Source: a virus. Taken from it: a DNA stretch of 40,585 nucleotides. The position numbers were made by a program, and so were the translations under genes. The stretch is from IMG/VR virus record IMGVR_UViG_3300005860_000029, positions 1-40,585 of that record, one strand, 5' to 3'. Shown one piece after another: positions 13,489 through 40,585 of the stretch. Below the pieces are notes generated by a model, which made no database searches, was not told the origin of the DNA, and saw nothing but the letters and a program-made list of their open reading frames with translations. The stretch's first letter is position 1; each line of letters starts with the position of its first letter.

Positions 13489-13518
13489 GGGTTGCTGGGG
13501 GGTAACCCCCAGCAACCC
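13489..13518. terminator. Strong hairpin before terminase
   Basis: Perfect 13-bp arms (GGGTTGCTGGGGG and its complement) with a GTAA loop, followed on the plus strand by TTATT. It probably ends the early/replication transcript just before the terminase promoter at 13522. On its left side the minus strand carries AAAGAAAGGAGGAGAGAAATG, identical in style to the ribosome sites of the far leftward operon, so the cassette may have been copied from there. Confidence 0.65.
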
Positions 13519-31400: not shown

Positions 31401-34400
31401 AGAGGTGAAAGGCATACCAGTAATAAGAGGAATTACTGAAGACAATAGACCAGTAATAGATTGGGGTGAATTACATAAAATTGTGAATAATCTCCTATCA
31501 AGTGATAGACCCACAATGATGAGAATATTAGAAAACTATCAGATACCATCAGAAAAAGTGCCGACGTTGGATATAGCAAGGGCTACTTTAAGAGAATTCA
31601 ATGATTTAGTGCAAGATGTGTTATACAAAGAATTAGCAGGTAGAATGTTGCTAACACCTGAAGAGATGGCAGCTAGAAAGATGATGGAGACAATAATGAT
31701 AAATACAGGCTTGCCAGCTCACGCTGTTATCCCCCTTACAGGTGCCAGTATGACAGCTGCTCTTTACTCTTCTTTAATGAAAGCAATAGAAGATAGATTT
31801 GCAGGCAAGCCAGAATTTGCAAAGCAAGTTGACATATTCAAAGAATTATTAACTCAAGATATGTATCAAGCACTTAGAGGTTTTATGCCTGATATAACTT
31901 TCAAGCAAGCAAAAGAATTGCTTGGTGCTGTAGACATTGTAGATAGACTCGAAAAGATGAGAACACCAATAGTAGACATTCAAAGTGCTTTGAGATACCT
32001 TGAAATTCCCCTTTTGGAAGAATTGGAAAAAAGAACTGAAGATAGTTTGAAGAACATTAAACCAGGCAAACACTTCTTTGAACAATTTTCAGAAGCATTT
32101 AATAAGCATTTAATAGATGTAGCTGAGACACATTTGAATTTAACAATACCTGAAGGATTGGAATCTGAGGAAGCAGTTTATGAACTCATAGCAGATGGAT
32201 TGAGGAATATCTATTCACAAAGATTGAAACAAGAATTGAAAGCCATAAGAAGAGAAAGAGCTGAATTAAGAAAAATGGGGATGGACATAGATGTATCTGA
32301 TTTAGGGTTGCCAGACATCAAGCCAACAGAGATAACACCTGAAGCAGTAGGAGAAGAGATACAAAGAATTAGAGAAAGAGTATTCACCAAAGGAATAGTA
32401 AATTCTTATCAAAAGATTGCTTCTAATCCATTAGTAGTTGAGCCATTAGTGAACAGCTTTATGGAATTGGCTAAATCAATTGACCCTAAAATGTCTGAAA
32501 GAGAAATTATGGAGAGAATGAGACCATTTATGGAAGAATACTTGCCAACTTACATATCAAGAATGAAGCCACAGACAGTGGAAAGAATAAATCAACGAGG
32601 ACTGGAACTTATGAGAAAATTAGCAGAGAGAGAGCAAGAAGCTTTAAGGCAATTAGGAGAGAGGGCTAAAAGAGGACCTGAAGAAGCAGAAGAACAAACA
32701 GGAACAGAAGTAGAAGAAAGTGAAGATAAGGCCTTAGGGAGAAGTGTAAGTGATTTGTTGGGAGAAGCAAGAATGACAAGAGAAGAATTGAGAAGACTTT
32801 TCTTCAAGCCTGGGCAATTCAAAAAGATGGCATATGGAATTGAACCAAAAGCTGCAACAGAGCAATACATAGCATTGACCGTCAATTCAGTTAGACAGGC
32901 TATGATGAAGATGGCTTTGTTTGATTTCATAGAAAATGAAATTGGAGAAAGAGTGCCAACAAGAGAATTAGCTGATTATGTTAGAAAGCTTAACATTGAT
33001 TTAGATGATGCTGATGCTTTGAGAACTGCTGTTGCTTCCTACTTACAGCAGAAAGGATGGGAAAGGAATGCTTTTATGGTGGTTGATAGTAAGTGGACTT
33101 CTCTTACACAGGATGAAATCAATGCTTTAAGAAGACAACCTATTGGACCTGCCCACCAAGTATTCAGGGATAGTGTGGTAGGATTAAGTGGGATGGTGGA
33201 TATGTCTACTTTCCCTCTTTTAAACCTTAATGTGATAAATGAATTGCTTAAAAGAAGCACAGCCGTGCAAACATTGTTTAATGAAGCTAAGAATGCTGGG
33301 GTAAGAGGTGCACTTGCTGAAATACCTTCTGAAGTCATAAGAGATATGATAGAAAATCCTGAACGCTATAGAATTATCAGCATACCGATAGAAACTTATT
33401 TCAAATTCTTTACACATTTAGCCAAGCAAATGCGATACTTCCAAAACCTTTATAGTGCTATCAGAACACCCTGGAAAGAGATAGCTTCATTCAAGAGCGC
33501 GGGAGATGCTCTGAATAAATTTGCTACTTATGTAAACAGGTTTTGGTATCAAACTATTTTGGGATGGCCGCCAAGGGCATTGGGTTGGATTATGGGGAAT
33601 GTTTACTCTAATGCTCTATTCACATTGTTGCACGGGCTTAATCCATTAGATGGGTTCAAAGTATTGTTCAAGCCAGCACTTAAAAAGAATTTAAGAGAAT
33701 TTGTTCCTATCGTTGACCAAGCATTTGTTTCCTCTATTGACCAAATAGGACTTCAAACACCTTCTATAATATGGAGAGCTGCCAGCGGTTTAAAGAATGT
33801 TATTACTTTTATACCACGATTGGTATACGACGCTAATCAGAAAGCTGAGACATTCGCTCGCAGAGGTATAGTTTGGAGCCTGCTCAAGAAGATATTGAGG
33901 GATAATCCTGATGTCCGCAGGACTTTGATAACTGAAATGCTCAAAAGCCCTGCTGGCATTTCTTGGCTTTCTAATATCACAGATTTGAATAATTACACTG
34001 CACTTGCTGAGAATTTCTTGCAAAGTCCAAGAACTGCTTTCCACCCTCAAGTTGCTCACTTCCTTAGTGAGCAACTTGGTCGTATCATCAATAATTACTC
34101 TGTCACTACTCCTGCTGAACAAGTGATAACTATGTATGCTATCCCATTCTGGAAATTCTATAGATTAATGATTTCTTACTTCACGGCATATCCTTTCACG
34201 CATACTGAAGCTGCTGTCATTGCCTTTGGCTTGGGTAATATGCTTGAAAGAAGACACGAACAAATATTCAATAAATTGCTACTAAATGTAAGCAAGGCAA
34301 GAGAATTGCAAGCACAGCTAATAGTAGGTAGTCCCTACCCAGAGGATAAATTGCCTATTAGAACTACTCCCATAACCCTTGAAGACCTCAACTGGTGGGT

Positions 34401-39648: not shown

Positions 39649-39797
39649 TTCTCTTCCCTCCTTTCAAACATTTTATCCCAATTAGGGTAAGAAATAAACA
39701 TTAAAATTAAACCTGCTACTGCTACCTTTTCATTGTTTCCCGCCATCGCACCAAAACAACATATAACGCCCAGCATATACATTATGAAGGAAATCAT
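39645..39797 (-). CDS. Small membrane protein
   Basis: The 50-residue ORF starts at ATG 39797 behind AAGAAAGGAGCAAGAA: MISFIMYMLGVICCFGAMAG, then NNEKVAVAGLILMFISYPNW and a charged tail. Two hydrophobic stretches suggest two short spans. It overlaps both neighbours by 4 bases (ATGA), so it is translated together with them. Function unknown. Confidence 0.6.
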   Translation of the reverse strand: MISFIMYMLGVICCFGAMAGNNEKVAVAGLILMFISYPNWDKMFERREEK

Positions 39798-40231
39798 TTC
39801 TTGCTCCTTTCTTCTCTTTCAAAATATTTAACCATAAAGTTCCACATTATTTTTTGAATTTCAAATTCAAATTTACGCCCCAATTTAACAACTTTTTGTA
39901 TCTCTTCTTCTGCTTTGTTGTCTTCATCTGACTCATCGTCTAAATCAATGAGGAGCTGGTCTTCTAAATTCTCCACTATAGAAAACCAGTGATAATATGC
40001 TGTGAAGGGGAAAATTTTAAACCAATATAATACTTCACACAAGAAGCTGAATGTTTTCTTCCATTCCCATTTTTCCTCATCGTTTAGTTCTTCATATGCA
40101 ACATTTAAACATCCCACTTCTTTTATTATATTTTTTAGTTCTCTTCCCATTCGTTGATTTACCCTATACACCCTAGTATGTAATTCCCTTAACTTTTCCC
40201 CTAACTCCTTAATCTTCATTTTTTCAATCAT
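39794..40231 (-). CDS. Hypothetical 145-residue protein downstream of the tRNA-like element
   Basis: ATG 40231 (MIEKMKIKELGEKLRELHTR) follows GAAAGGAGAGATAAAA; the frame is open to 40249 but that reads only the ribosome site. The protein is helical, with an aromatic patch (FLCEVLYWFKIFPFTAYYHW) and a very acidic loop (LIDLDDESDEDNKAEEEIQK). It is the first gene after the tRNA-like element on the leftward transcript, so cleavage of that element would leave it with a new 5' end. No family recognised. Confidence 0.65.
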   Translation of the reverse strand: MIEKMKIKELGEKLRELHTRVYRVNQRMGRELKNIIKEVGCLNVAYEELNDEEKWEWKKTFSFLCEVLYWFKIFPFTAYYHWFSIVENLEDQLLIDLDDESDEDNKAEEEIQKVVKLGRKFEFEIQKIMWNFMVKYFEREERSKK

Positions 40232-40260
40232 TTTTATCTCTCCTTTCATTTTTATAAACC

Positions 40261-40347
40261 TGGTGGAGGTGGAGGGAATTGAACCCTCGTATTGTGTGTG
40301 GGGGACGGTTCAGCCGTCCCCCACACACAATCAATCCTTTCACCCCC
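40261..40347 (-). ncRNA. tRNA-like element resembling a tmRNA tRNA-domain without the message part
   Basis: Read on the minus strand, 87 nt fold as follows. A 7-bp acceptor stem pairs GGGGGTG (40347-40341) with CACCTCC, with the third pair G-U, the main alanine identity signal. It is followed by ACCA (discriminator A and encoded CCA, 40264-40261). The T-arm is GAGGG/TTCAATT/CCCTC with the conserved TTCxA. A D-like loop AAAGGATTG carries GG, as in tmRNA GGAUUCGAC, without a D stem. In place of an anticodon arm there is an 18-bp hairpin (ATTGTGTGTGGGGGACGG, loop CTGAA), located like tmRNA helix P2. It has no anticodon and no tag reading frame. The 5' acceptor overlaps the stop codon of the upstream gene. 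An attP copy of a host tmRNA end is the alternative, but that would not include the 5' acceptor strand. Confidence 0.65.
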
Positions 40348-40585
40348 TCTCTGCGTCTTCTTTCAAATAATTATACAACCTTATATAACCTTCAAGCAAC
40401 ATTCTAACAACCTTTGCTAACTCAACACAACCATAAACAGGGTGGATATATGCTCGGTCAAAAGCAATCTCTGTATCTGTTAATAAACTTTCTAATACAG
40501 CGTCATTTCCATCCTCTACTACTTCTAACACATCCATTATCTTGCCTCTTTCCTCTTGAAACCTTTTCCATTGCTCGGGCAACCA
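40340..40585 (-). CDS. Small hypothetical protein, C-terminal part (starts at 76)
   Basis: Leftward frame running off the right edge and continuing from 1-76 once the 40-base overlap is merged. The visible part reads PEQWKRFQEERGKIMDVLEV..., then TDTEIAFDRAYIHPVYGCVE and GYIRLYNYLKEDAERG. The full product is 93 residues and helical. Its final codons and TGA (GGG TGA) coincide with the 5' acceptor strand of the tRNA-like element, so 5' processing of that RNA would cut this message at its stop codon. The TTG at 40582 is not the true start. Confidence 0.7.
   Translation of the reverse strand, partial: WLPEQWKRFQEERGKIMDVLEVVEDGNDAVLESLLTDTEIAFDRAYIHPVYGCVELAKVVRMLLEGYIRLYNYLKEDAERG
40546..40585. 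repeat. Terminal overlap with 1-40
   Basis: Right copy of the 40-base end repeat, with T where the left copy has G at position 22. It codes for Lys instead of Gln in the gene crossing the joint. It supports a closed or permuted genome of about 40,545 bp. Confidence 0.85.

Follow-up and report, generated by a model that had tools for sequence, protein, structure and literature searches.

Judged from its sequence, an 87-nt RNA encoded in the window (the whole 40,585-nt stretch of viral DNA analyzed here) is a tmRNA-type tRNA-like domain (TLD) in which a hairpin replaces the message. This mini-tmRNA belongs to a large, apparently undescribed family. With doubtful cases removed, it numbers at least 254 loci (201 distinct sequences, 66–95 nt long), nearly all of them on IMG/VR phage contigs. 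The structure, the family, its covariation, the alanine identity elements, the absence of a tag, the absence of SmpB from the carrier records and the strong viral bias are observed. The function is inferred: most likely the mini-tmRNAs are decoys, charged with alanine, that block trans-translation by engaging stalled ribosomes together with the SmpB and EF-Tu of the host, a reading to which we assign a probability of about 0.5.

The mini-tmRNA of the window

From position 40347 down to 40261 the RNA reads GGGGGUG AAAGGAUUG AUUGUGUGUGGGGGACGG CUGAA CCGUCCCCCACACACAAU AC GAGGG UUCAAUU CCCUC CACCUCC ACCA (Table 1). Its minimum free energy fold is exactly the one proposed (−55.4 kcal/mol; z = −7.3 versus shuffled sequences, 0 of 200 of which were as stable). 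The fold has a 7-bp acceptor stem that includes G3-U70 and lacks a D stem and an anticodon arm. Only the hairpin lies between the two halves of the TLD, and neither a resume codon nor a tag reading frame is present there. An earlier note on this DNA had listed a G3-U70 acceptor, a GG-bearing D-like loop, an 18-bp hairpin, a T-arm and CCA, without D stem or anticodon arm, and all of these are found in the sequence and the fold. When about 300 nt of flanking transcript are folded in, the hairpin persists and the acceptor region competes with neighboring pairs.

Table 1. Positions of the mini-tmRNA, its parts and the adjoining reading frames in the window.
Feature	Position	Strand	Description	Basis
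Mini-tmRNA	40261..40347	−	Whole tRNA-like RNA, 87 nt; 5' end at 40347, CCA end at 40261	Rfam, model R1, fold
Acceptor stem, 5' strand	40341..40347	−	GGGGGUG; G3 pairs with U70	Fold; acceptor 100% paired, covarying at pairs 4–6 in relatives
D-like loop	40332..40340	−	AAAGGAUUG, 9 nt, with conserved GG	Alignment to R1 and RF00023
Hairpin	40291..40331	−	18-bp perfect stem, CUGAA loop; located where tmRNA has P2, message and pseudoknots	Fold; P2 covarying in relatives
T-arm	40272..40288	−	5-bp stem GAGGG/CCCUC, UUCAAUU loop	Fold and alignments
Acceptor stem, 3' strand	40265..40271	−	CACCUCC, with U70	Fold and alignment
3' end	40261..40264	−	A73 and encoded CCA	Sequence
Upstream co-directional ORF	40340..40582	−	At least 80 aa, no family match; UGA stop is nt 6–8 of the mini-tmRNA	
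Downstream co-directional ORF	39794..40249	−	151 aa, unknown; internal ATG near 40231 after AAAGGAGAG, a ribosome-binding-like site	

The Rfam tmRNA model RF00023 matches the element with 57.4 bits (curated cut-off 47; E = 4e-20). The alignment spans model positions 1–374 with the message deleted and 280 central consensus positions skipped, and the tmRNA pseudoknots are not present. Covariance model R1, built from 33 other phage elements with the window left out, gives 54.6 bits (E = 2e-10), which places the element among the lower-scoring members; for ordinary tRNAs in phage loci, the scores of the same model stayed at or below about 22–25 bits in one test and rose to about 31.5 bits in a second. 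Searches with both kinds of model had been suggested in the earlier note, and its reading of the element as a tmRNA-style tRNA domain with a hairpin in the place of the message is upheld by Rfam, by the independent model and by covariation over the 201 distinct relatives.

The window RNA has the G3-U70 acceptor, A73, T-arm and CCA of the tRNA-like domain of tmRNA, and like the TLD-only tmRNA reported from mycobacteriophage DS6A it is a TLD without message in a phage. It does not fit tRNA-Ala, since the fold has neither D stem nor anticodon arm and ARAGORN, which reports no tRNA and no tmRNA in the window, calls none. An attachment-site copy of ssrA would be expected to hold only the 3' end beside an integrase gene; both ends of the TLD are present in the window, and no integrase was found among the window proteins scanned.

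The 18-bp stem is the longest perfect hairpin anywhere in the window. Other perfect hairpins of 13–15 bp, some of them G+C-rich, occur at 2213-2246, 1157-1185, 13489-13518 and 34048-34078, and such hairpins exceed chance expectation in this phage of 37% G+C. The stem of the mini-tmRNA might have grown, or been replaced, by the same process.

A family of mini-tmRNAs in phages

The first search pattern fixed the 5' acceptor strand, GG.TT.GA and the T-arm, and left the 3' acceptor strand and the hairpin open. It matched 59 viral contigs in IMG/VR; in 84,980 GTDB genomes (257 Gb) it matched three stretches, all on MAG contigs. This imbalance argues that the elements are neither decayed host tmRNAs nor attachment-site copies, the latter being an outcome that the earlier note would have taken as a refutation. 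One of the three GTDB matches (L061, 150-230) is in a MAG labeled as an archaeon and is probably a binned phage contig. Apart from L046, which consists of overlapping tRNAs and was rejected as a mini-tmRNA, every first-pattern sequence inspected was a TLD-only RNA whose P2 is short and capped.

Two relaxed patterns, both of which fixed U70 and one of which left the D-loop and P2 free, each matched at least 120 contigs, and the true number is higher. Model R1 confirms the relatives found by pattern. The family counts exclude loci L193, L225, L246, L155, L159, L235, L174, L177, L236 and L168; the contig of L193 carries a full tmRNA, and L235 is a tRNA. Many matches in INPHARED were not mini-tmRNAs but full or permuted tmRNAs. 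The mini-tmRNA of the window is among the most divergent members of the family and has its longest perfect stem. One phage contig (L194) has two matches 2 kb apart, at 1298 and 3208 (79.6 and 41.8 bits), the second of which may be a divergent second copy. ARAGORN calls almost none of the mini-tmRNAs.

Covariation and conserved nucleotides

Pairing reaches 92% of cells across 33 independent sequences (69% in shuffles), with a covariation score of 0.58, versus about 0.13 in shuffles and no more than 0.11 when the partners are slid. Model-based alignments, which lean to the model structure, give 94–96% paired and scores of 0.60–0.72. Changes on both sides occur at all eight P2 pairs, at acceptor pairs 4–6 and at the outer T-stem pairs, with G3-U70 fixed. 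Compensatory change in the acceptor and the long stem was what the earlier note had named as support for the fold; relatives with only the 3' T-arm/CCA part, or with uncompensated acceptor changes, would have refuted it, and the relatives keep both acceptor strands. The note's doubt, that the 5' match covers only seven bases, is met by the family as a whole.

The third acceptor pair is G-U in 49 of 49 distinct sequences of set A3, whose search patterns left U70 free. Among the matches listed, G3-U70 is present in 200 of 201 sequences across 31 different acceptor stems (a figure that partly reflects the search, U70 being fixed in both relaxed patterns) and A73 likewise in 200 of 201, with CCA encoded in only 63 of 201. 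The matches listed from the search with the D-loop free retain GG in 83 of 84 relatives, and about half of these keep a tmRNA D-loop of the UCGA/UUGA type (UUCGA-type); others have, for example, GGUAAGC. The UUCGA-type D-loop and the tmRNA 3' GAC co-occur (Fisher p = 6e-5, again among the matches listed). Compared with the tmRNA motif GG(U/A)UUCGAC, the D-loop of the window is shortened: GG is kept and GGAUUGAUU is present (GGAUUG/GGAUUGA). UAC stands where tmRNA has 3' GGAC. With these two departures, binding of SmpB by the window RNA may be weak.

The interior of the hairpin varies from a simple loop (66 nt) through an AAAGCC internal loop with a small hairpin (about 81 nt) to longer forms (91–95 nt) and the perfect 18 bp of the window. 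GG, G3-U70 and A73 are kept while the interior varies, and therefore it is the L-shaped upper half that is conserved and not the interior; its charging is inferred. The forms of about 81 nt, such as L010 9735-9815, have AAAGCC or AARRCC as an internal loop beneath a small terminal hairpin and occur in many lineages. By eye only, a D-loop GGUUU could pair with the AAAGCC motif.

Carriers and genomic setting

The virus of the window is a tailed bacteriophage encoding TerL, portal, sigma-70, endolysin and RDF-like proteins, the last a Gp3-like recombination directionality protein. An archaeal host, suggested by the best TerL match (a Methanofastidiosa virus, 26%), was rejected in view of the sigma-70 factor and the endolysin. 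The phage is a near-singleton: collections hold no close relatives, no IMG/VR relatives of the flanking genes were confirmed, and the terminase matched one distant contig.

Mini-tmRNAs are also present, within tRNA arrays and unannotated as RNA genes, in the Streptomyces phage isolates LuckySocke, GiJojo, pSt2308, Shaeky and Alone3. Those of LuckySocke and GiJojo are identical over 80 of 80 nt within flanks that are about 30% identical, a pattern that shows strong selection or else movement of the element as one unit. In the pSt2308 copy P2 is rewritten, and the acceptor shows a compensated change from U4-A69 to G4-C69. In Alone3 (L273, 1487-1565) the flanks match those of LuckySocke, and mismatches in P2 and the T-stem make the copy look decaying or rewritten. 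GiJojo gene 44 (L271, 1494-1736), annotated as a hypothetical protein, spans the mini-tmRNA and is probably a false gene call.

Large sets of tRNAs occur in several carriers; about three-quarters of the first 150 loci have no tRNA nearby. SmpB is encoded in none of 50 carrier records (one of them, L193, proved to hold a full tmRNA only), and a full tmRNA and a mini-tmRNA occur together in just one, the contig of L209. The absence of SmpB and the single full tmRNA imply that host factors would be used. That one contig (G045) is a 340-kb, jumbo-size phage record with the full tmRNA at 309390-309751 and the mini-tmRNA at 117191-117270. The neighbors are assorted phage genes (exonuclease, DnaB, RecE-like, methylase, NlpC/P60), among which no constant protein partner emerged.

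As the earlier note had observed, the element overlaps a stop codon, the UGA of the upstream ORF (Table 1). Counting co-directional ORFs of at least 60 codons where enough upstream sequence was available, 30 of 186 distinct mini-tmRNAs overlap a stop in this way, as do 10 of 213 tRNAs; the overlap is thus recurrent and not general. In such cases maturation would sever the upstream mRNA either ahead of its stop codon or inside it. In L010 (9735) and in the unrelated lineages L052, L072, L114, L118, L173, L162 and L188, the UAG of the upstream gene straddles nt 1, and exact 5' maturation would therefore cut inside the stop codon and leave a non-stop mRNA.

Comparison with known systems

The earlier note knew of no mini-tmRNA of this form. 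That claim does not hold, since a TLD-only tmRNA has been reported once from a phage, mycobacteriophage DS6A (tmRNA Website; Mao et al. 2009, cited in both PMC4131195 and PMC11915505). PMC11915505 (2025) repeats that report and adds CDS-less plastid forms. DS6A remains a single case; the present family is far larger and more diverse, and its window member has an 18-bp capped hairpin. The literature found describes only DS6A and full-length phage tmRNAs, with no account of a widespread mini-tmRNA family, although subscription journals and preprints were mostly not covered.

Bacterial tmRNA (ssrA, RF00023) shares with the mini-tmRNAs the G3-U70 acceptor, GG in the D-loop, T-arm and CCA, and with many relatives also UGGUUUCGAC and GGAC. 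It differs in having a resume codon, a tag frame and pseudoknots, in its length (about 350–400 nt versus 66–95) and in its location on the host chromosome rather than a phage genome. The third acceptor pair of tmRNA, G-U, is completely conserved, and its deformed D-arm contacts SmpB (PMC3985003). The CDS-less tmRNAs of Mallomonadaceae plastids (about 65 bp; PMC11915505) have likewise lost the message and kept the tRNA-like domain; these are organellar and known from two reported sequences, whereas the mini-tmRNAs occur in tailed phages of bacteria. SmpB has been crystallized with an artificial TLD fragment closed by a UUCG loop (2CZJ; Bessho 2007, as described in PMC3985003). That construct lacks the CCA end and, like the mini-tmRNAs, joins the 5' and 3' ends of tmRNA by a capped helix, so that the mini-tmRNAs are its natural counterpart. 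Phage tRNA-Ala genes share the G3-U70 acceptor, T-arm and CCA and have the D stem, anticodon arm and anticodon that the mini-tmRNAs lack. Full-length and permuted tmRNAs of phages (Bixzunavirus, cyanophages, Samunavirus and others) are also phage-borne, but they include a message, and their scores are those of complete or permuted tmRNAs. In one phage with a permuted tmRNA, Tunturiibacter phage Tunturi_4 (L274), a gene annotated as an RF-1 domain release factor (possibly ArfB-like) lies directly upstream (1121-1882), and two ribosome-rescue functions adjoin. Moorella phage MCACPph1 (L283) has a 3' part of tmRNA at the end of its record (1-200), beside an integrase gene; this is a typical tmRNA attachment-site copy, unlike the mini-tmRNAs.

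Possible function

Expression, processing, charging, binding and inhibition are all inferred. The mini-tmRNA of the window would be transcribed leftward with the neighboring genes. To judge from its tRNA-like ends, RNase P would cut the 5' end and the 3' end would be trimmed, and the near-absolute conservation of G3-U70 and A73 suggests that host AlaRS would charge it with alanine. Host SmpB and EF-Tu could then bind it, and the complex would compete with tmRNA-SmpB for SmpB and stalled ribosomes. Lacking a message, it would bring trans-translation to a halt without a tag, and host tmRNA rescue would be inhibited or diverted during infection. Competition with host tmRNA is inferred because the architecture is that of the SmpB-bound TLD and because a molecule similar to the DS6A TLD strongly inhibits tmRNA in E. 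coli, perhaps through titration of SmpB (PMC4131195, citing Mao 2009; PMC11915505). According to PMC4131195, that molecule worked whether chargeable or not, so pure SmpB titration leaves the conservation of alanine identity unexplained, which counts against the decoy reading. Since G3-U70 is near-absolute and charging therefore appears to matter, a charged complex on stalled ribosomes is favored over simple titration. Two further points count against the decoy reading: the UUCGA motif is missing from about half of the relatives recovered with an unconstrained D-loop, and the absence of a constant gene partner means that no pathway is indicated.

The main rival to a charged decoy is rescue without a tag, in which the alanylated RNA and host SmpB take over the nascent chain in a stalled ribosome and another factor releases it with one alanine, so that ribosomes are recycled and phage proteins are spared the proteolysis tag. 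Near-absolute alanine identity fits a charged RNA used on the ribosome better than pure titration, and the placement in tRNA arrays of the isolates fits a role in translation; even so we regard it as unlikely, given that the earlier TLD-like molecule inhibited tmRNA (PMC4131195 and PMC11915505) and that the release partner is neither encoded beside the mini-tmRNA nor found as a constant neighbor. Alternatively, the RNAs could work independently of SmpB, drawing off a host defense nuclease or toxin that acts on the acceptor, T-arm or CCA end of tRNA-like RNAs. In favor of this, when the search left the D-loop free, only about half of the relatives had the UUCGA type that SmpB binding would lead one to expect. 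The large tRNA sets of several carriers and the freely varying hairpin interior would also fit; G3-U70 and A73, however, need not be kept for this purpose, about three-quarters of the first 150 loci have no nearby tRNA, and the coupling of D-loop and 3' GAC points to tmRNA-like folding, which makes such a decoy distinctly improbable.

The conserved G3-U70, A73, acceptor and T-arm are used by both AlaRS and EF-Tu, and the RNA could sequester one of these or supply Ala-RNA to a non-ribosomal enzyme. A short minihelix would suffice for either task, leaving the conserved GG D-loop, P2 helix and elbow unnecessary, and titration of the abundant EF-Tu by one RNA is implausible; we give this explanation little weight. 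The stop-codon overlap, seen at nt 6–8 in the window, commoner in mini-tmRNAs than in tRNAs and recurring as a UAG across nt 1 in several unrelated lineages, would suit an element acting only in cis, as a cleavage site in the leftward transcript for RNase P or some other tRNA enzyme, and so shaping early mRNA, including removal of the upstream stop. We find this no easier to credit as a general function, with 156 of 186 mini-tmRNAs free of overlap and a fixed G3-U70 that a cis signal does not need. Phages do integrate into tmRNA genes, the window encodes its Gp3-like directionality protein and the Alone3 copy looks partly decayed; yet a non-functional relic or a copy of a host attachment site is refuted for the family and barely conceivable otherwise, because both acceptor strands, the D-loop and the hairpin are kept with strong covariation and the first pattern found 59 viral contigs against three stretches in 257 Gb of GTDB genomes. 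DS6A, moreover, integrates at tRNA-Lys and not at tmRNA (PMC10865867).

Implications

Trans-translation is nearly universal in bacteria, but what part it plays against phages is unclear. A virus-biased family that keeps the whole alanine and elbow signature and drops the message implies that many phages gain from engaging trans-translation without tagging. We propose, tentatively and with somewhat less assurance than the decoy reading itself, that phages commonly take over ribosome rescue by means of a diverse set of mini-tmRNAs that can be charged with alanine and have no message, the alanylated RNA entering stalled ribosomes with host SmpB and ending trans-translation untagged. The DS6A observation, obscure until now, is the tip of a large group, a class of RNA that standard annotation with ARAGORN has missed. 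The question is testable in culturable Streptomyces phages that bear unannotated copies. If the proposal is true, trans-translation would have in these RNAs its first widespread RNA-based antagonist or re-director. The relatives in hundreds of environmental phage sequences suggest that phages commonly interfere with bacterial ribosome rescue.
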